Of a stretch of DNA of 64,000 nt, positions 2,656 through 51,632 are shown one piece after another. Positions within the stretch are counted from its first letter, which is position 1; each line of letters starts with the position of its first letter. This stretch comes from Apoderus coryli. Taxonomy: Eukaryota > Arthropoda > Insecta > Coleoptera > Attelabidae. The DNA lies in the NCBI GenBank assembly GCA_911728435.2, contig OU452199.1, positions 39,195,253-39,259,252 of the forward strand, read 5' to 3'. Both the position numbers and the translations under genes were made by a program. The notes below the pieces were generated by a model. The model was not told the origin of the DNA. It was given only the letters and a program-made list of their open reading frames with translations, and ran no database searches.

Positions 2656-2764
2656 CACTGTGTCCAAGAAAAGAATGGGATAGCATTGGAATCTTGGAAA
2701 CGGTAGGAGTTACAATGTCTGTTAAATTAGAGAAAAGTTGTACAATTTAAACACCTTTTAAAAG
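2656..2764 (+). mobile_element. Solo arm of a CACTGTGTCCAAG fold-back element
   Basis: This is a 109-bp copy of the left arm of the complete element at 17106-17898, beginning CACTGTGTCCAAG after a TA. It stops inside the ACACCTTTTAAA block, exactly where the piggyBac relic on the opposite strand begins. The last codons and the stop of that relic are therefore supplied by this arm. Other solo arms lie at 25324-25740 and 45003-45280. Confidence 0.8.
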
Positions 2765-4310
2765 GTGTTAATATGGGCTTTTGTAAGTTCCTTAGAAAGA
2801 TCTGTCAAATACATTCTTCGCTTTAGTTTGGTGTTTGTATTGCTGTAGTATATAATTTGGGAGTTTATACCACTAATATTCAGTAAAGAACAAAACACTG
2901 TAAAGGGCCATCGGTTGCTCACTCTTGTAGTAGAGTACTCTGACTTCATTCTATCCACCACATCGACAGCTCCTTTTGTGAGGTTGTAGAATGTGATAAC
3001 TGATGGTTTCATTGCATCGCCAGTTTCCAGATCAAAATCGTCATCTTCGTGAAATGTAGAAAGCATTAATACATTTTTATTAGCTTTAGGTACATATGTA
3101 GTAAGAAGACCGTTGTTGGAATCGACTCCCCATGCAAACATACTACTACGCGTTTTACGTAATTTACTATTCAAAAATATTGGAGGTACCTCTCGCTTGT
3201 TTTTTCGTAATGATCCCACTAATGTAATACGGTGATTATGTACCAAATCATTTGCTAACGGTACAGACGTGAAGTAGTTTTCAGTTGTTACATTTCGTCC
3301 AGTACCACTGTAGTGTCTTAGAAGTCTTGTTACGACGCTATGGGCATCATTCTTCAGTTGATAAGGTCCCGCAGGTTGTTTACCTGCATAGATTTCGATG
3401 TTATGTGTATAAAACATCCTTGAGTCTACAACTGCATAAATTTTAATTCCATACTTCTCAGGTTTATTGGCAATATACTGACGGAACTTACATCTACCTC
3501 TGAAACCGTCAAGCATTTCCTCAATAGTTATGTAAGAACCCACTGAGTTGAACGCACCTCCCAATGAAAGCTTGTAATATATATCGCACAGGCGCCAGAT
3601 TGTCTTCTTGAGCTCTTTCTACTCTGGAATCTATATCATCAAACCTAATAGCCTGTACCAGAGAGTGAAAACGACGTTCTGACATAGTAGCTGCAAAATA
3701 TTCAGGTGCTGTTCCGTCTGTGCTCCAAAGTTCTGAAGTATTTAAATGTTGGGCCCTTTTTACACCAGCAAGGTATAAAAGTCCTATGAATGCACTGATT
3801 TCTTCAAAATCTGTAGGCGTGTTATGTTTCAGACTCCCAGTATCTCGAATTTTCTGAAGTTTTCTATTTGTGCACTCCGTAATATGCTGAATAATGTCAT
3901 CTGGAAAATAGAGTTTCCAGCAGTCCAACACTGTTTTAGCCTCTTTGGCAACACCTTTTACACCTGACAGCTGTGTAACTATGGTTTCACGTTTGGTTTT
4001 TCGAATTTGTTTCTTATCTTTGTGCACTAACCACTTTGTACCGTCTTTACCAATATAGTAAGGTCCATTCATGTCATACTTTCCCAAATTTTTACAGGTA
4101 TTACCTGAATTGAATTGAGTAGGGACAGTGCTTACTACACTCTGTTCTTCTCCTTCACTATGTGTAGAGGTGGCTTCTGGAGTATCAGTGTTTGATTCAT
4201 CAGAATCACCTTGAGCCAGGTCATCACCTTCTTCCTCTATACACTCCCACAATGCTAATAAACGTTGCTGTTCCCGTTCAAATGAAATCAGTACCGCGTT
4301 AGATTCTTAC
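2758..4310 (-). pseudogene. piggyBac-like transposase relic
   Basis: Two minus-strand frames together cover most of a piggyBac-type transposase. The first (about 4308 to 3521) has the acidic N-terminus and the N-terminal core (LVHKDKKQIRKTKRET; FIGLLYLAGVKRAQHLNTSE). The second (3564 to 2758) has the RNase-H-like core with FRGRCKFRQY, NKPEKYGIKIYAV and KGAVDVVDRMKSEYS. The frame changes once, within 3521-3564. Two of the three catalytic aspartates are glutamate: TIDE is TIEE (residue 15 of the second frame) and TTDN is TTEN (residue 95); the third is kept (D201). The Cys-rich C-terminal domain is missing because the frame runs into a solo MITE arm, and no in-frame ATG follows the upstream stop. 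The 5' side stops against a truncated fold-back copy, and no piggyBac ends are visible. It looks inactive. Confidence 0.92.
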
Positions 4311-14249: not shown

Positions 14250-14606
14250 TACGAAACGTACATACGGCCTCATTACAGAAGTCTGACTTACATCTGTCAT
14301 TTGGGCTATTTCATTTGTAGAAATATTTTTATTTTCTTCTACGTGTAATAACAGTTCTTCAATTTTGTTATTTGCTAACACTGAATTGAAACACACGCAA
14401 AAAATGTGTATAAAAAAGTTAGGGTAGCATTTCACGCCTGTATGCTCCTTTAATTTACCCGCCTCTGAGATTTATTTTTTCATAATGTTAACGACAAGTT
14501 GAATCTGCTGTTTGAGTTTGAATCTGCTGTTTGAGTTTGACAAAATAGTATTATTTTAGTCATTTCAAATTATTGTCTAAAACATTTAATGAACCAGCCC
14601 TGTATA
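14250..14606 (-). pseudogene. 5' end of a Tc1/IS630-type element with transposase N-terminus
   Basis: Read on the minus strand, a terminus TACAGGGCTGGTTCATTA (at 14606) is followed by about 200 bp of untranslated sequence and then a coding fragment (about 14390 to 14265) reading IEELLLHVEENKNISTNEIA then VSQTSV. This is the helix-turn-helix typical of IS630/mariner transposase N-termini (VEENPxxSTREIAxxxGVSxxTV). It breaks off after this helix. A 20-bp tandem duplication (TTGAATCTGCTGTTTGAGTT) lies at about 14499-14538. The same terminus is repeated in inverse orientation from 15066, with the interval 14606-15066 between them. Confidence 0.65.
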
Positions 14607-15065
14607 TTTATACTATTATAGTAATTTTTTTTTATTTTCGTACATACACATTAATCTTTGCGTAGATAGGTATACCATATAATTTTATATTACCCGACAA
14701 AAAACACTGCTGCACAGTAGTACCATCGAAAATATACTACGACTGGTAGTACATATATGATACCTATAATATAAAAACAAACTCCCACCTCGTAGGGGAA
14801 AGTATACTCGTCCTTGTCTAACATTGCCCATATGATTATTTTATTTCAACACAATACATATAACGCAATCTACAATTTCCATGGTTGCATGTTTTTCTAA
14901 TAGATGTAGCTCGTGTCGAGACAGTTTCAATTTTTGCTTTATTTCCCATATACGCTGACTATCTATTGTGTACATTAATCTTTTAATCTTTGCTATACTA
15001 ATGGAATATAACATCTACGCAAAGATATGATGTGTATGTACGAAAATAAAATGTTCAAGAGTATA
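14607..15065. repeat. Palindromic insert between two inverted termini
   Basis: The ends of this 460-bp interval are inverted: TTTTCGTACATACACAT and TTTGCGTAGAT at 14635-14670 match the inverse at about 15012-15048. It separates two head-to-head copies of the CAGGGCTGG terminus. A TGTACATTAATCTTT block at about 14972 resembles half of the micro-palindrome described at 49393 and 50676. Confidence 0.6.
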
Positions 15066-15725
15066 TACAAGGCTGGTTCATTACATGTTTTAGACAATTA
15101 TTTTAGGTCTCTAAAATTTCGGATATAAGGATGCATCAAAAAGTTCTATTTAAATTAACTAAATTTTGCATTATAAGTATGACTTCCGGTTATACCTGAT
15201 TCAGTTTTAAGGATCAAACTCATACAGCAGTTGCCATTTGTCTAAACATGAAAAAAAGATCATATTAACATGTGTTGACAAAGGCTTTGTTATCGAGATA
15301 CAGGGTGTTCATAATACCACCCTGGTTTTTCCGAATCGTTTTTCGATTTATTCATGAAATTTTACAAATGGTTAGTTTTTTAAAATCTCTGTCGAACAAT
15401 GTTAACATTATTAAAAAATAAATCTCAGAAGCGGGTAAATTAAACGGGAATGCACAACATTTTTTTTACGGAGGCTGCTTTTTGCAAGTGGCTGATGTAA
15501 AAAATGTCTGACATTTGCTGCATGACAATAATTATTTAAAAAATACAGTTTCTAAATAATACAGGATGTAAAAATTATACTTTTTATTGTTTTTATTCAA
15601 AATACAAATATATTGAGAAATAGGTTGAGGGTTTTGGTAAAGTGGTGAAACGTATTTTTTCTACGAATGTCTTTAAATGCCTTTATTATATGTTCAATCA
15701 TGATTTGACAATGTAGTACATTGTA
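15066..15725. repeat. Second copy of the GGCTGGTTCATTA element end
   Basis: It starts with a degenerate TATACAAGGCTGG terminus. At 15410-15445 it carries AAATAAATCTCAGA and GCGGGTAAATTAAA, which are the inverse of 14450-14485. Additional CAGGGTG and CCACCCTG termini occur near 15300-15325. No coding remnant is seen. Confidence 0.6.
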
Positions 15726-15824
15726 ATGCTGTTTATCATTTACCCGTGCGTAATAACATTTCCCACTAGTTGCTAGGTAACTAGTGGGAAATATTATTAC
15801 GCACGGGTAAATGATAAACAGCAT
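15726..15824. repeat. 99-bp near-perfect palindrome
   Basis: The arms ATGCTGTTTATCATTTACCC...CACTAGTTGC and their inverse pair over almost the whole length, with a very short loop at about 15773-15777 and only a few mismatches. As RNA or single-stranded DNA this would be a hairpin of nearly 48 bp. Its inner block TTTCCCACTAGT...ACTAGTGGGAAA recurs at 15926-15970 and 38166-38212. Confidence 0.9.
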
Positions 15825-15925
15825 AAATACCGAAACTGTCAATTTGGTGTTTGTATTTTCGGCGTTGCTATGGTGATTTTTCATGCCCGCCGCTACTTTG
15901 TCATTACCAGGAAATTTTATCCGTG

Positions 15926-15972
15926 CGTAATAATATTTCCCACTAGTTACCTAGCAACTAGTGGGAAATATA
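15926..15972. repeat. Second CACTAGT...ACTAGTG hairpin
   Basis: A palindrome with arms ATATTTCCCACTAGTT and AACTAGTGGGAAATAT around CCTAGC or similar. It is preceded by CCGTGCGTAATA, the inverse of the TATTACGCACGG flank of the first hairpin. The two hairpins therefore bound a unit of about 180 bp as inverted ends. Confidence 0.85.
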
Positions 15973-16198
15973 ATTAATAATAATTATAATTAAGTATTTC
16001 GCTAATTTCAAAACACATAAACAGTGATAGTGAATATAGTTTAACACCACCTAGTCAATTTCATACTTCTAATTTATCGTATTTAGGCTTATACGTTAAC
16101 AAGGGTAACTTTTGAAAAACAAATATTTTCCTAAGAATTATGTTAAATTTATTCAAAAGCATTAAAACAGGCGTAGAAAAAGTATAGTGTGAAACTTA

Positions 16199-16295
16199 CA
16201 TGAAATGACCATTTCCTACTCGTATGATTTGCAGCATGAGCCGCAGGCGAGTGCTGCAAACGATCATACTCGTAGGAAATATATGTCATTTCATG
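16199..16295. repeat. 97-bp hairpin
   Basis: The outer arms CATGAAATGAC and GTCATTTCATG, then ATTTCCTACTCGTATGAT with its inverse, and the inner arms TTTGCAGCA/TGCTGCAAA, enclose a loop of about 15 bases (TGAGCCGCAGGCGAG). It has the same style as the two hairpins just upstream but a different sequence. Confidence 0.85.
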
Positions 16296-17105
16296 TTCGT
16301 TGCACAATATACTATTTAATACAATTTATTTTACTTTAAAGGTCCTATAGTCATCGATTATAATCGAATATTAATTTACTTACTTGTGTACATTAATCTT
16401 TGATGCCACGTTACCAATTGCATTTATTATTATTTTGTATACATAATTTACTCAACAAATCGTAAATTTTTGAATATATTTATTATTATGTGTGTGACAT
16501 TAAAATTAGTTATGACAGCAAATGTTCACTGTCTATGTTCCATTTTAAAAAACTTGCACATTTATATTGCTGTCAAGGGTGACAAAACAATGAACAATAA
16601 ATCAAAATTAGTAGGGTGTTTTATTATTAATGCACTGTATACTATTCCTTATAAAGCCGGAAACTTCTTACCCCACCGACGTACTTTTGTATCCAGTGGA
16701 ATGCCAACTTCCCACACTTTTTATTTACTTAAACTTGCATTATAAAGTTCTAAAACTCTAAAGCGTTTTAATAAAAATTTGTTATTTCAATTTAGCTTGT
16801 AGTCATTTAAAGTTAATCCCATTTCCTCTCTGTTTTCTTAAGACAACCGCTGCGTCAAGACCGTCCTTTTTTTTTGTATTTCGTATAAAAAAGCTAAACA
16901 AGACGAAAACTGTAAAATTGTTTTTATTAAAACTATCCGGGGACGACGCGACGAGACAAAACTACGAAACAAAATCTAATTTAAAAAAACTGTACAGATG
17001 CAAAGATTTGTTCGAGAATCCCAGAATTGTCCGTTGAGGTTTCACACACGCTGAATGGATTTTTTATATAAAATAACTGAAACCTTGTTGAGAAGTTTGT
17101 TTATA
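16296..17105. other. AT-rich stretch without a gene
   Basis: No coding sequence is recognised. A TGTACATTAATCTTTG block at about 16388-16403 is identical to half of the micro-palindrome at 49393. Near 16520-16630, GACAGCAAATG, TTCCATTTTAAAAAA and AATCAAAATTAGT resemble, in inverse, the stretch at 35140-35250. Confidence 0.4.
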
Positions 17106-18843: not shown

Positions 18844-20540
18844 CTGAGAGAGTTTTTTTTTTAACTCACCTTACCTCTCCCCCAAAATAAGATCAGATCC
18901 GGAGTTTAAAACCTTTGGAAGCCAACGCACATCATTGTAAATATTTATTGTGAATATATGTTAGTTTCTTGACCATTAGGATCATATTGTGTTTTGTTTA
19001 TTGTTGAATCAGTATTTTAATCAAAGATTAAATTGTTTAAGAATATGAATTTTTGCTTTAATAATTTTTGTTGTTGTTCTGGTGTTGTGTTTCGTTCAGT
19101 TGTAATAACTTCATTTTTCTTATAAATACAATTGATTTCATAGATTAAGGATCCTATTTATAATCATCGACGTTGCGTTACTTATTTGTAGCATCCTCAG
19201 AATGATATTCTAGAATAAATTGGTTCTAAATTATGCCATTCTATGGCAACTGGTGCTTGACAATCATCGCCACAATGCTGATGTTTGTTTGTCGGTCCTG
19301 CCACTTAATTAAACTGAACTGTTCCTTTTTAAGATTGAAAAGAAGGTTGCGCAACCGATCATGACTGCTTAATTGGACCAAAGATTCTGTTGTGATATAG
19401 AAACAAATTGTGAGTGAGTCTGTATATTAGAATTAGTTCTCTGCGTCTCTGCCTTGTAGGTTCATACCTTGAAGGCGCATCTCATGGTCCTCTATTATTA
19501 CTAGTTGATCCTCATTTAGAAGGAGGACGCCCATTTTTACTAGTTGATTATACTACAGTAATTTGTAACCACCCTGTATTTTGATAGGGCAATCTGCCTT
19601 CAAAGCTATTTGTCAAAGGACTTTCCTAGAATCCTAAAAGTGAGTGTAAAGGTTATTGGAGTTGGAAAATCCCTAAAAATGAAAATTGATTTTTTTTTAA
19701 ATCAACTTTAAGCCACAAAAATAGTATCTGATACACCTCCTGCCAGCTTCAAGTCTACTAGAAACTGCCATATTGTGGCCATACAGTAATATTAGTTCGG
19801 TGTTGGGAAACTTTTGTTCCATAATGAAATGTGGAAATTGGATATAGTTTTAGTACGACCGCGCTGCTGTGGGTGTTGATGTCGTGTTAAATAGGTGGAT
19901 ATCAACTTTTCAAACGGAAAATATCATAAGGGTATGTGGGTAATTTCATTAGTAAATGGATAGTCCAATTACTTAAGAGTTTAGAATCATTCTATTATGT
20001 TGAGGGATTGAAGTTTATTCTATTATCCACATAGAACAAACGATTTGCTTTTGTAGGTATACAAACCAATTGAGTTAAACAAAGGTCCGGATATGTAAAT
20101 CCCTACAAAGGGAAACATAGGTGCATGAAATGTTATTGGTGCAGCATTCTTATAAAAACCTTTTTGCCGATGATTTTCTCTTCCAAATCGTCGTCAGCAA
20201 ATAAATATATTATGCACACATAATGTAACCTCTAAAACTTGATGAGCTCTCGCCAAAAAAAAAAAGGCGGAAACTGCTTCATTCATTCTTCATCGCTCGT
20301 ATATTTCTTCAGGAGGAATTCTTTTGTCATACTTGGGAACAAATAATAATAGTCGCTCTGGGCCAGGTCAGGTATTTTTTTCTCTGATTGCTTCTTTTAA
20401 CCAGTCTAAGATTGAAGTGAAGTATTTTTCAGTTGGACGTATATGCGCCATGAGTTATGCGGCTGACTGCGACCTTCAAATCCATGGATGGTGGTATGCC
20501 CTTTTGATGCAATAGCATGACTTGTATTTAATGTGTAATA
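18844..20540. other. Long stretch without recognisable features
   Basis: No gene or clear repeat is seen. A CCACCCTGTA terminus lies near 19570. Codon-like open stretches are short. Confidence 0.4.
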
Positions 20541-25323: not shown

Positions 25324-25740
25324 CTGTGTGAGTCCAAGATAAGAATGGAATACCATTGGAATCTTGGAATCGGTAGGAGGTACAATGTCGGTTCAATTGG
25401 AGAAAATTTGTACAATTTAAACACCTTTTAAATAGTGTTTTCAAAAGTAATGTAACTTTAGCCGTTTTCGAGAATTTTTGACATAACGATTTTTTGCAAT
25501 TTTAGTTTTTATTTATTTCTGACATTATTTTTACAGATATGAAAAAAATCGAAAACACTTCCTGATTGTTACTTTTTGATAACAAAAATATAGCGTTTAC
25601 AAATTTTCACTACAACGTTTCGTTTTTGAAAAACCATCATCAACTTCGTTTTTTTAAATATTTTAAATACGGTCCTGGATTTTTTATTTTTAAATTTAAA
25701 GCCATTTTCGATTGAAAAATAGGTGGTATATCACACTTAA
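25324..25740 (+). mobile_element. Solo arm of the CACTGTGTCCAAG family
   Basis: The left half of the element seen complete at 17106-17898, beginning GTGTGAGTCCAAGATAAG and running to the family centre (AGGTGGTATATCACACTT). At that point it joins the 3' end of a hAT transposase relic on the opposite strand. Confidence 0.8.
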
Positions 25741-26064
25741 TGGTTTCAACAATATTAATAAGTTCTGCGTTGTTACTTAATGATGAATAAAATTCCGAAC
25801 AAGAAAGCTTAATGTTAGAACGAATGCAAAGTTCTGCTTTCACCATTTCAACTGTCAGTCTGTTTCTGTCGTCATCCCATAGTCGTTTCATGATGCTGAA
25901 AATCCTTTCCACATACGCATTGCTACAAGGAACAGACAAAACTACCTGAACTATTTTTCTTAAGATTGGAACATCACCGGCCTTTTTTGGATGCTGACCG
26001 GCACCCGGCCTTGTTAACGGGAAACCGGCCAGGCCGGTGGAAAAACGGCCAGGTGGCAACCCTA
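25739..26064 (-). pseudogene. hAT transposase dimerisation-domain relic with one terminus
   Basis: On the minus strand, the frame contains LSVPCSNAYVERIFSIMKRL followed by DRNRLTVEMVKAEL, the C-terminal hAT dimerisation domain (usual form LsxPxSSAxxERxFSxM...RN+L). It is preceded by a Gly/Pro-rich stretch from CCGGCC repeats and by the terminus TAGGGTTGCCACC (ending at 26064), typical of hAT ends. The central catalytic part is missing, so this is an internally deleted element. The other terminus is replaced by the solo MITE arm, which supplies the last 30 or so codons. The frame continues without a stop into the LINE fragment at 26065-26191, giving a chimeric open frame that I do not consider a gene. 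Confidence 0.8.
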
Positions 26065-26191
26065 GGCTGATCCTTGGCAGTTTCCAGAAATTCGGAAACT
26101 CATTACATTTCAATGACAAATTAAATATAGTTGAAATCGGTTTAGCAGCACAGTCGTTGACGACAAAGACAGGTATACCGTCTGGACCCGA
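26065..26191 (-). pseudogene. Non-LTR reverse transcriptase fragment
   Basis: The minus-strand codons read SGPDGIPVFVVNDC and then STIFNLSLKCNEFPNFWK. This is the conserved GPDGIP...L..iFN.SL....P..WK block at the start of the palm in LINE reverse transcriptases. The fragment is about 43 codons and is cut by the hAT terminus at 26064. Confidence 0.75.
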
Positions 26192-28009
26192 AGTATGTCT
26201 AGCTTCAAACGAATTATCTCTTTGCCTGCCAAGTGTATCGCTAGCCCAGCCAGGCTGGACCAAACTAGGCCACGTATATTGCTGCCGATACACCATATGC
26301 GAAGTTGCTTAGAAGCCTGGTGTATACCTACCACACACATTTCTATATGTTTGGAATTCTATTTTCTAACGTTTGGCCTGTGTGAACACTTTGCCATATG
26401 GAACTTGAGCCTAAGACGACCGAAAAACGTGATTTCGTTTGCGATACACCTAAAAAAAAAAACAAACTCAAAAAAGTAAATTTCAAGTCATTTTAAAGGA
26501 CATCAATCAAAAATAATGCTTTGAAAACATCATCTTCACCAATCTCTCTAATATAAATAGGATATGGAGAGAAAAAAAAAAGAAACCTATGGAAATGACA
26601 TTGTATATTGAATAATATATCGAAAATATAGAAGATACAGAGGTAAGAGATAAAGTATCTAATTAGAATATAAAAAATAAACTAAAAGAGAATAATGTCA
26701 AAAAGAGAAATAGCGTGAGGACGCACCAAAACCTCCACGAAATGGGTATGCACTTTTAATTCCAAGATAATGAAACACAAAATATAAAACTGTTTGTAAA
26801 ATTGGATAAAAATGCCATTTCCTCACAGTAATAAGACGAAATTGTAACACCAAACCATTACGGACATAATGAAATTTCGTGACAGCACGTACGTCTACTA
26901 GCACAGCGCTAGATAAGTATATAAATAACATTCTCCGTTCTAATATATTGCAACAAACTTGACTTTAATTCCTTTTTGTTCTTCATTCGGTGTCTCTTTT
27001 TTCCTGCTGTATTTTTGAGGTACGTATACACAATACGTTATATCTACGTTTCTACTCTTTTTTGACCGCATAAACCCGCAATATATGGTAAGTATAAAAT
27101 AAACAGGAAACATATTTTGCACATCATGTCAACTGACGGAAGAAACCGGGGGAATTATTGTGGAAAATCGTAAAAGCTTTATCACTTCAAAATTTCGTGA
27201 ATTAAACTGAAATTAGGGAGTTAAGGCAAAGCCAGTGACGAATACGTAAACGTATCTTTTGACATCTACGCATGCGCTCTTTAAATTTTTGATACGTTTA
27301 ACGATAAGAAGGCCGTAAACATATGTACCTCTACGCGTAACGTATACTTAAACGTATTGAACCGATTGTTGTCGGAATTACATGAATTTGTACGAATATC
27401 TAGAATAGAACATTAAAAACTCAATCTAAATTGAAAATTAAGCTAAGCTATTTTGCAATAAATACTTTATTATTATTAGTAGTAGTAGTAGTTTATTTTG
27501 TAACAATTATAAACATTTTTCTGTTATTGTTTATAGGTATACATAATAAAATATATAGGTATTTGGTTAATAATTAAAAAAACAATAATATTAACAACAT
27601 AGTACATGGAAGTAGATAAATCTAAAATAGTCTTTTTCTCAAGTAAAGTGTTATCTCTACCTTCCGCATACGATACGTATTGGATGGCACCTTACTCTAT
27701 TTTGAATGACTGCTTATCTAGTGTAAACATAACCAAAATCTCACGTTTACGTATGGCGATACGTATACGCCCTTTGTTTTGCCTTAACTCCCTAATATTC
27801 AGATTAGTAAAGACGTATCGCAACGTCTGTGAAGTTAGCGTTCACAGCGTCGAACATAGGATCAGGGCAATCTGCACCAAACCAATTTTGATATTTAATA
27901 AAGGGTGTCCCAAAATTAACGTAAGATTTGAATTAAAACATACAAAACACAGTTTTTAGACTTTTGATTTTAAGTTTTTTTATTGAATCATAAAGTACAT
28001 AGGATAGTG
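26192..28009. other. Intronic sequence without a gene
   Basis: No coding sequence is supported. It includes an (ATT)n/(AGT)n microsatellite at about 27470-27492 and a GGGTGTCCCAAAATTAACG terminus at about 27902-27920, which is the 3' terminus of the mariner remnant that follows. Confidence 0.45.
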
Positions 28010-39369: not shown

Positions 39370-40205
39370 GTTGCTACGTTGGGCTACGCGAGGCTAAGCA
39401 AGGCTGCGCAAATCTAAACAAGGCTACGCAAGTTTACGCAAAGCTACGAAAGGCTACACAAAGCTCTCTTGGACTCGTCTGAGTCTGACTCGGACTCGTC
39501 TGATTCAGACTCAACTGACTCGGAATGTCTAATTCAGAGTCACCTAACTCGGACTCGTCTGACACTGATTCGTCTGATTGTGACTCGCTTGACTAGGGTT
39601 CGTCTGGTTCTGACTCGCCTGACTAGGGGTCGTCTGATTCTGACTCGCATGACTCGCACTTGTCTGATTCGGACTCGCCTAACTCTGACTCGGACTCCTC
39701 TGAATCGAACTCGGACTCGTCTGAATCCGTGTCGCCTGACTCTGACGCGCCGGACTCGGCCTCGTCTGATTAGGACTCGCCTAACTCTGACTCGTCTGAT
39801 TAGGACGCGGACTCGTATGACTCCGACTCGTCTGACTCAGACTCGTCTGACTCAGACTTGTCTGAATCAATCTCAGACTCGTATGATTCGGACGCTACGC
39901 GAGGCTAAGCAAGGCTGCGCAAAGCTAAGCAAGGCTACGCAAGTTTACGCAAAGTAAGCAATGCTACGCAAGTCTACGCAAAGCTACGAAAGGCTACACA
40001 AAGCTCTGCAGAGCTACGCGAGGCTACGCACAGCTACGCTAGGCTACGCAAAGCTATGCAAGGAATAGAACTCACTCGTCTGATTCGGACTCGCCTGACT
40101 CGGACTCGCCTGACTTTTCTGAATCGAACGCGGACTCGTATGATTCGGTCTCTCCTGAATCGGGCTCGTCTGACTCAGACTCGTCTGATTCAGCATGGAC
40201 TCAGT
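39370..40205. repeat. Composite minisatellite (two alternating units)
   Basis: Blocks of a GGCTACGCAA-type unit of about 9-10 bp (39370-39465 and 39890-40065) alternate with blocks of a GACTCGTCTGATTCG-type unit of about 9-15 bp (39470-39890 and 40075-40205), giving an A-B-A-B order. The stretch is strongly GC- and CpG-richer than the rest of the intron. In one frame the second unit encodes an Asp-Ser run (DSDSSDSDSTDSE) and in another an Arg-Thr-Leu run. These open frames are products of the repeat, not a supported gene. It lies about 500 bp upstream of the last exon of the host gene. Confidence 0.9.
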
Positions 40206-49329: not shown

Positions 49330-49480
49330 TTTTGTCTGTTAATTAAAAAATTTGAAGACATAAAAATTGACTTTTCTCTCATACACCTCAACCAAAGATT
49401 AATGTACATTAATCTTTGCCTCAACCTATGAGGAAAAAGTGCACTTTTATGTATATGTCCTCAAATTTTGAATTAATAGA
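49330..49480. repeat. Imperfect hairpin carrying a micro-palindrome at its tip
   Basis: The arms (TTAATTAAAAAATTTGAAGA and the inverse of TCAAATTTTGAATTAA) are about 55 bp of imperfect inverted repeat. The 26-bp palindrome 49393-49418 sits at the tip. Confidence 0.6.
49393..49418. repeat. 26-bp perfect palindrome with 7-bp target duplication
   Basis: Two abutting copies of CAAAGATTAATGT in inverse orientation form a perfect palindrome. It is flanked by CCTCAAC at 49386-49392 and again at 49419-49425. A palindrome bounded by a direct repeat is the structure of a transposition insertion reduced to its two ends. The second instance is at 50676. Confidence 0.85.
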
Positions 49481-50170
49481 GAAAAAAAAAAGAGAAAATT
49501 GTTTTAATTCAATCTGACCTATATTTATTATATATATTATCCTATCTTTAGTGTTTTAAAAAATACACAAATTTAAATCTTATCACATGGGACAAAATTG
49601 AAGTTAAATATTTAATAAAATTTAATTAATTATTAGATAATAATTTCAAAGTATTATTAAGCGAATATTTCGGAGAACCACTTAAATTAAATGTTTTTTT
49701 TTTATAATTTCCGACAAAAATTGAGAATAGTAAATTTTTAATTACCGCTCTGTCTTATAAATCCAAAATTTCATTACGAATCGCTTGACATGTTGTTCGC
49801 TCTGGCTGGAATGACTTTTACATTTTCACATTCTAAAACACTTCGGAATATATAAACTGCAATACAATATCGATCTGAAATGTGTACTTAAAGACAGTAC
49901 CGTACTAAAAAAAAAAAGTTTTATTTAGTAGAACATCATTTATTTGAAGTTGTGTACTTTGTTAATTTTTATGTCATCCATGATTGTTAAATAAGTGGTT
50001 TCCAAGTATTCAAAAGTCTTCGTTGAATTAGTTTTTTGATTCGTCAAATTAACGAATCCCACCGACAGGCCGCAAAAATCACGAATTGCTCCGGGCGTAA
50101 GAATTGAATTTCATAACATTTAATAGACCAATTGTATTTTTTCTAGCAAACATTTATAAAAACAAAATCA
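49481..50170. other. Unassigned AT-rich sequence
   Basis: No gene is seen. Confidence 0.4.
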
Positions 50171-50675
50171 GTCGACTTTAGGGACAGTGGAATCTTCTGG
50201 TTTCTTCGTGTTTATTAGAAAGACAGCATTTGAAAAATCTGCGGTAAGACCATTATTAAAGCCAAAAATCAAAATTTAAGTCCCATAAAAATCCACTTTT
50301 CCACCTTTTACATACCTAGTAATTTTGTCATTTTTTCCATAAAGATTGAATCAAAATATGTTATTTTAACACTAATTTATATTCTATAGGCGTTTATTTA
50401 CCTAATTAATGCATCAATGTTTAATAAAACACATAAAACAAATTTGCAATGTAAAAAATAAAATAGTATGTAAAATATAAACAAATTGTTAAATTTTAGT
50501 AATAGGTTAAATTCTTTTTACATCGAAGTGAAGTTAGCTGCGTACTACATTTTGGATATTAGTACTGGTCTTTCATACCGCGACGTTGCCACTTATAATT
50601 TTAGAACAAAGTAGGTAGTTGGAGAGTTTTGATTTTATAACTAATATTTTTTAACTTTTGTATTTATAATTTTAG

Positions 50676-50703
50676 CAAAGATTAATGTGTAGATTAATCT
50701 TTG
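50676..50703. repeat. 28-bp palindrome with 7-bp target duplication
   Basis: CAAAGATTAATG, a GTAG centre and ATTAATCTTTG form an almost perfect palindrome, flanked by ATTTTAG at 50669-50675 and 50704-50710. The sequence without it is present nearby: TATAATTTTAGAACAAAGTA at about 50596 continues as the inserted copy does (AGAATAAAGTAGG). That paralogue therefore represents the empty site. Confidence 0.88.
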
Positions 50704-50739
50704 ATTTTAGAATAAAGTAGGTAGTTGGAGTAGTTGAGG

Positions 50740-51175
50740 ATGAACAAAAGACGGGGAATGTCATCGGTAAGGGAAAAGCACTGATCTGATGCGCTCAATA
50801 ACGGGCGTTGGTCGAGGATGTTATGATTCGGAAAGTGCGTATACTGTTCGTCGTATTCAACGTCTATGTTGAAACGGTGGTGATTTATTTATGATTATCC
50901 AGTTGTATTTGCTTAGGATGAGCATAAAACGGGAGAAGTTATCGGTAAGGGAAAAGCACTCAATAACGGGCGTTGGTCGAGGATGTTATGATTCGGAAAG
51001 TGCGTATACTGTTAGTGGTATTCAACGTCTATGTTTTAACGGTGGTGATTTATTTATGATTATCCAGTTGTATTAGCTTAGGATGAGCATAAGACGGAGA
51101 AGTCATCGGTAAGGGAAAAACACTGATCTGAGGCGCTCAATAACGGGCGTATACTGTTAGTCGTATTCAACGTCT
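50740..51175 (+). repeat. Tandem repeat, two and a half units of ~163-180 bp
   Basis: Units begin at about 50740, 50919 and 51081 (GATGAGCATAA(A/G)ACGG, then ATCGGTAAGGGAAAA, then AATAACGGGCG and GTATTCAACGTCT). The second unit lacks a 12-bp segment (TGATCTGATGCG) and the third lacks an internal block. An open frame across it reflects the repeat, not a recognised gene. Confidence 0.85.
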
Positions 51176-51632
51176 GTTTTTTTAAATATATGTAATGGTA
51201 ACTTATTATTACAATCTGGCAACATTGCAACGTTACTAATCTCCAATATTTTTTACGCACCAAACTTCACTTCGTTAGTCTAATTTAGAATTCTGTTTAC
51301 ATTTTACATACTATTTTATTTTTTTAGATTGCAAATGTGTTGTATGTGTTTTATTAAACATTGGTGCATTAGTTAGGTAAATAAATGACTATAGAAGATA
51401 ACCTATTGTTAAAATATCATATTTTTCTTCAATCTTTATGGAAAAAGTGACAAAATTACCAGGAATGTAATAAGTGAAAAAGTCCATTTTTATGGAAATT
51501 AAATTTTGATTTTTGGCTTTAATAATGGTTTTACCGCAGATTTTTTTTTTGAAATATACTATTTCAAATGCTGTCTTTCTAATAATAAAAAAAAATCATA
51601 AGATTCCACTGTCTCTAAAGTCGACTCGACCC

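Follow-up and report, generated by a model that had tools for sequence, protein, structure and literature searches.

A 28-bp palindrome lying between two copies of the heptamer ATTTTAG (site 2) in the 64-kb stretch of DNA analysed here, hereafter the window, is very probably the end-joining footprint of an excised P-superfamily transposon that makes 7-bp target duplications, with a putative cut 18 to 19 nt inside its ends. A larger transposon probably inserted at this site and then left, and numerous other places in this genome resemble scars of the same kind. This reading builds on the target duplications, on empty sites, on termini common to inserts of 16 bp to more than 1 kb, on the composition of the insert cores and on the transposase genes, all of which were observed; from these we infer the excision event, the position of the cut and the route of repair.

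Two palindromes in the window and the state of their targets

We scanned the window for palindromes of 18 to 60 bp with arms of at least 9, flanked by a direct repeat of 7 to 10 bp. Site 2 and a second palindrome (site 1) were the only ones found in the 64 kb, and none was found in each of 60 dinucleotide shuffles. When the scan was relaxed to repeats of 5 to 10 bp, four palindromes were recovered, sites 1 and 2 among them. A 34-bp insert considered at position 19022 of the window is probably due to chance. The features of the two sites are as follows.

49386..49392, + strand: left target-site duplication of site 1, CCTCAAC (read directly; scan)
49393..49418, + strand: candidate excision footprint of site 1, 26 bp, two ends overlapping by TGTACA at 49403-49408 (read directly; longest-microhomology product)
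49419..49425, + strand: right target-site duplication of site 1, CCTCAAC (read directly; scan)
50170..51626, strand not assigned: host foldback repeat carrying site 2, with inverted arms at about 50170-50564 and 51234-51626 (self-comparison; partial copy at locus L031)
50593..50624, + strand: uninserted duplicate of the site 2 target, with a single ATTTTAG (read directly; alignment)
50669..50675, + strand: left target-site duplication of site 2, ATTTTAG (read directly; repeat-flanked palindrome scan)
50676..50703, + strand: candidate excision footprint of site 2, 28 bp, CAAAGATTAATGTGTAGATTAATCTTTG (read directly; same terminus as the transposase unit described below)
50704..50710, + strand: right target-site duplication of site 2, ATTTTAG (read directly; scan)

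Site 2 consists of perfect 11-bp arms around the 6-nt centre GTGTAG. The original prediction of a 28-bp palindrome between two copies of ATTTTAG was borne out by direct reading of 50669-50710, and the nearby empty duplicate that it described, with a single ATTTTAG, was found at 50593-50624: in an alignment, 50598-50624 and 50704-50730 are 96% identical over 27 nt. The target also differs from that of site 1, as had been claimed, CCTCAAC being duplicated there and ATTTTAG here. Site 1 itself is a perfect 26-bp palindrome, CAAAGATTAA-TGTACA-TTAATCTTTG. It lies close to the tip of an imperfect hairpin of 156 bp (49330-49485, 74% self-complementary), with the CCTCAAC target about at the loop.

Within the foldback repeat around site 2 there are internal tandem repeats of about 165 bp and a local duplication of 72 bp. 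Locus L031 has another, partial copy of this host repeat, in which the 72-bp duplication is present too. At the position of site 2, L031 harbors one ATTTTAG and is empty; it carries a 28-mer of its own beside the host-repeat copy, and the window copy is without that insert. Since each copy thus lacks the insert of the other, the uninserted state at site 2 is most likely ancestral, and the insertions at L031 and at site 2 most likely represent independent events. At L031, homology to the window starts at the target duplication, and the 28-bp scar forms its left limit, i.e., a rearrangement boundary, as if the excision break had also yielded the rearrangement.

Candidate scars across the genome and the composition of their cores

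The 428-Mb assembly containing the window, which lies on contig C5, was searched with the pattern CAAAGATTAAT-N6-ATTAATCTTTG, which occurs at 68 places, and the reversed pattern occurs at none. We fetched 49 of these 68 places, site 2 being a further one, and tabulated 40; L045 to L053 were used only for the list of inserts and the target motif. Among the 40 tabulated 28-bp sites (three of which, L005, L022, and L034, have common flanks and count as one event), the 7-bp duplication was exact at 31, matched at 6 of 7 positions at 8, and matched at 2 of 7 at the remaining one. The same 11-bp arms around 0 to 30 bp were found at 1,156 places in the genome, and the reversed-pattern control gave 0; this search covers forms of 22 bp or longer, and duplications were checked only at the loci examined.

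At the loci examined, 74 distinct inserts of 16 to 55 bp had a duplication of at least 6 of 7, with L097 counted solely as a 6-of-7 case. Inserts with the same ends and duplications measured 16, 18, 20, 21, 22, 24, 26, 28, 29, 31, 32, 35, 39, and 46 bp. The 28-bp form is over-represented among these loci because the N6 pattern selected for it. The 55-bp insert, in L014, consists of two scars in a row. Downstream 7-mer matches at L065, L074, L078 (two of four rows), and L119 had no terminus before them and were taken as chance. An exact 26-mer search of viral contigs gave no match.

We derived the target motif from 61 distinct sites with exact duplications; in symmetrised form it reads W T A V Y A W T R B T A W. 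Of the 61 sites, 58 have a pyrimidine as second and a purine as sixth base of the duplication, and the unsymmetrised columns have the same trend on both sides. Mirrored pairs matched in 202 of 610 cases, for a background mean of 174.9 and a maximum of 212 in 1,000 draws. The overall mirrored-pair count is thus only moderately raised, and the palindromic character of the motif is clear in single columns only.

Core composition was analysed in the first 50 of the 1,156 places listed, which come from the initial 16.3 Mb of contig C1 and at which duplications were not checked one by one. In this sample, 43 of the 50 cores consisted of exactly two termini with an overlap of at least 0, versus 7% of random cores; among inserts of at least 26 bp, two-terminus cores made up 39 of 46, versus 0.6%. 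The other seven cores contain extra or altered bases, which could reflect insertion during repair or mutation at a later time. With reverse complements merged, 21 different forms were seen, the 26-bp class being the commonest (16/50); the 29-bp class accounted for 6/50. At least 18 nt of one end were needed in 15 of the 50 cores and 19 nt in five of these, and none needed more, the repeat being 31 nt long and longer stretches being allowed. In addition, 18 nt are retained on the left side of the 39-bp form at L083, and likewise 18 nt on its right side if an extra ATC is set aside. The transposase would therefore be expected, going by the retained lengths, to cut at nt 18 to 19 inside the end.

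We also modelled the joining of two identical tails. The longest microhomologies gave products of 26 bp (6 nt) and 16 bp (6 nt), then 28 bp (2 to 3 nt); because the 26-, 28-, and 16-bp forms were already known when the model was computed, it is not a blind prediction. The expected core was present in 22 of the 40 tabulated 28-bp sites. For the 29-bp class the microhomology is 0 if tails are 18 nt and 1 to 2 nt if they are 19 to 20, so that microhomology fails to account for all of the common classes.

Longer elements with the same ends and a P-type transposase unit

Exact 7-bp duplications also enclose elements of 106, 155, 504, 642, and 1,239 bp, with one outermost base differing in the 155-bp element. 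A 996-bp element (L093/L121, C1:10067878-10068873, duplication GTACCGC) matches the terminus over no more than about its first 15 nt, the subterminal sequence being different, which indicates that several families have a common outermost end.

A genome search for solo ends returned 1,177 and 1,067 on the two strands, versus 13 and 6 for the control. About two-fifths of the listed solo ends are an internal copy with the near-constant flank ATCTACG, located about 300 bp inside one end. Loci were drawn from this search as 30 regions and then as 38 regions skipping the internal class, two of which repeat earlier loci. The near-constant flank shows CAAAGATTAATGTGTATGGACGAAA to be internal, about 300 bp inside an end, and not a transposon end; the idea that the 28-bp form arose by joining at a GTGTA microhomology was dropped with it.

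The window also holds two remnants of parent-family elements.

14383..14983, - strand: parent-family element remnant with its terminus at 14983, outermost base altered (identity to an L055-type element)
14993..16402, + strand: second parent-family remnant, L062 type, with terminus TGTGTACATTAATCTTTG at 16385-16402 (identity to L062)

In the minus-strand remnant, 14538-14983 and 14383-14521 are 90% and 99% identical, respectively, to the L055-type element; in the plus-strand one, 14993-15459, 15468-15659, and 16315-16379 are 92 to 95% identical to the 1,239-bp L062 element. The half-sites at 14648, 14967, and 16385 are terminal or subterminal motifs of these two adjacent P-family remnants (14383-16402).

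A candidate source of transposase was found in the same genome. The P-transposase RNase H domain (PF21787) gave at least 151 genome matches (150 of 252 candidates scored) and 0 in 14 control genomes. An open frame of 859 aa scored above cut-off for PF21787, PF21788, and PF21789 and matched the solved P transposase (PDB 6p5a) with an E value of 1.1e-40; it has the TNP-type RNase H fold with the GTP-binding insertion expected of a P-superfamily transposase. No THAP domain (PF05485) was found in the 859-aa open frame. Its homologues number 68 among 7,994 scored, most of them unnamed; the named ones include sequences from aphids, ticks, butterflies, and a fruit fly, and some carry the name Transposable element P transposase.

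The left ends of four copies of this transposase unit read CAAAGATTAATCTACACAATAGATAGTCAGC, the same 31-bp terminus, with different flanking DNA. The 642-bp element has 350 bp in common with the left end of the unit, at 86%, and the L055-type end matches the P-unit end exactly over its first 31 nt and no further. The unit is longer than 7.7 kb; it was read from its left end, copy B being truncated toward the right end, and the footprints are accordingly linked to it through that left end. Duplications of 7 to 8 bp, as in the P superfamily, were seen in the short forms (exact in 31 of 40) and in the five non-autonomous elements of 106 to 1,239 bp.

Over the domain, 20 P-transposase copies (L132 to L151) are identical at at least 398 of 399 positions, many of them lying in open frames as long as 859 codons; because of this near identity, their amplification must be very recent. 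A 16-bp footprint, ATGCAAT[CAAAGATTAATCTTTG]ATGCAAT, lies inside the transposase unit and is common to L140, L153, L159, and L161. A nested relative probably left the transposase unit before the unit amplified.

Proposed excision model, alternatives, and known systems

We propose that a P-superfamily cut-and-paste transposon with the 31-bp terminal repeat CAAAGATTAAT[G/C]TACACAATAGATAGTCAGC entered ATTTTAG, duplicating 7 bp. Its transposase would later have excised it by a staggered cut about 18 to 19 nt inside each end, leaving on each donor end a single-stranded tail of transposon sequence. Both tails would have the same sequence because they derive from inverted repeats, and their joining, often at a short microhomology, would leave the two target duplications separated by a small palindrome. 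At site 1, the 26-bp insert would be a join at the 6-nt self-complementary TGTACA. Site 2 would combine about 10 nt from one end (50676-50685) with 18 nt, TGTGTAGATTAATCTTTG, from the other (50686-50703), the 18-nt part being a C-variant end as at the start of the transposase unit.

MITEs are short, have inverted repeats and target duplications, and possess a common body. The short forms described here are likewise short, with inverted repeats and target duplications, but unlike MITEs they have no body beyond the joined ends. The 26- to 32-bp palindrome could still be an extreme MITE, a mobile micro-element moved by the P-type transposase, since identical forms recur at different places, as do the 26-bp (16/50) and 29-bp (6/50) forms among the first listed, and since 7-bp duplications accompany, where checked, the 68 occurrences of exact arms around a 6-nt centre. 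Against this, 21 forms among 50 listed places is not what a common body copied between sites looks like, 43 of the 50 contain terminus sequence only and stop at about 19 to 20 nt, and microhomology favours the 26- and 28-bp forms; moreover, 26 to 32 bp could presumably not hold two ends that are each cut 18 to 19 nt inside. We therefore regard a mobile micro-element as extremely unlikely. The original prediction had spoken of two independent insertions of a tiny palindrome. Its view of the events as independent stands, and the 7-bp repeats do behave as target-site duplications, but the claim that the palindrome itself had inserted is not supported: length and core vary as expected of the joined ends of one terminus, and longer elements with the same ends exist, as does a P-transposase unit. 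The original prediction had also named the case that would overturn it, an ancestral palindrome deleted from the other copy. All that speaks for it is that the two states stand side by side; the second host-repeat copy, L031, was inspected and is empty too, so that there are two empty target copies (50593-50624 and L031) with exactly one ATTTTAG each, and duplications are exact at 31 of the 40 tabulated sites. We accord this possibility practically no probability.

Two further alternatives accept a larger transposon. The short forms may be tiny internal-deletion derivatives that arose by interrupted sister-chromatid gap repair rather than by direct end joining. A graded series of lengths does exist (106, 155, 504, and 642 bp), and for P excision, synthesis that breaks off and is completed by end joining has been described (PMC2895639). 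However, the short forms stop at about 19 to 20 nt and do not taper through the 31-nt repeat, as expected from the joining of overhangs, which makes gap repair a quite unlikely source. Footprints of a transposon from another superfamily with 7-bp duplications would be compatible with a link to the transposase unit that runs through its left end, but four copies of the transposase unit have an identical 31-bp terminus as their left end, and the 642-bp element matches that same end (350 bp at 86%); we consider such an origin very unlikely.

Drosophila P is among the closest known systems. There, cleavage by the P transposase leaves the donor site with single-stranded tails of 17 nt. When Rad51 is mutated, many P-excision joins keep both duplications together with joined remnants, e.g., CATGATGAAATAAC(AT)GTTATTTCATCATG; in others a duplication is partly lost (PMC2895639, Table 1). 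Many of these P{w[a]} junctions harbor both target duplications and joined remnants of the inverted-repeat ends, often palindromic, as seen here; they often have 2-nt microhomology and some have templated insertions (PMC2895639). The two systems differ in that P{w[a]} has 17-nt overhangs and 8-bp duplications and was studied in laboratory crosses of spn-A (Rad51) mutants, whereas here we deduce 18 to 19 nt, find 7 bp, and see many candidate scars in one natural genome (PMC2895639).

As in P footprints, the short forms consist of two target duplications and joined end remnants with little else (43 of 50 listed cores; 74 duplication sites). Unlike P footprints, in which each end keeps at most 17 nt, 15 of the first 50 listed cores need at least 18. 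The footprints described here work like P footprints with a slightly longer overhang. The terminal repeat is 31 bp long, as in the P element, and the transposase has the RNase H domain, the GTP-binding insertion, and the C-terminal RNase H domain of the P superfamily; P has 8-bp duplications and a 17-nt staggered cut, and the unit found here is larger than 7.7 kb.

Galileo, another member of the P superfamily, likewise combines 7-bp duplications, an AT-rich target motif (GTANTAC), and a P-type transposase, but its repeats are long and internally repetitive and the common terminal repeat here is 31 bp (PMC4168063, PMC2775673). We found neither long repetitive repeats nor the AANGT/ACNTT motif of Galileo, and the target motif differs at the flanking pair.

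On balance, we lean toward the broader view that up to 1,156 germ-line scars, plus shorter ones that were not counted, stem from a recently amplified P-superfamily transposon that cuts at 18 to 19 nt rather than 17 and makes 7-bp rather than 8-bp duplications, offset and duplication together amounting to about 25 to 26 as in Drosophila P (17 + 8), and that scar length and core record how the host made the join. Read as footprints, such scars would count past excisions, reveal the cut position of the transposase, and sample the spectrum of animal germ-line end joining over evolutionary time with no need for a laboratory construct. In the literature searched, which was accessible in part, we found no genome-wide catalogue of P-type footprints, which is weak evidence of absence; repeat annotation likely misses scars of 16 to 40 bp or labels them as tiny palindromic insertions.

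Other mobile-element traces were seen elsewhere in the window. Fragments of a piggyBac-type transposase (PF13843) occupy two frames at 2761-4306 on the minus strand, and a hAT dimerisation domain (PF05699) lies at 25643-26308, also on the minus strand. Finally, the stretch at 39382-40191 holds long, degenerate tandem arrays, whose periods include 10, 15, and 30 bp.
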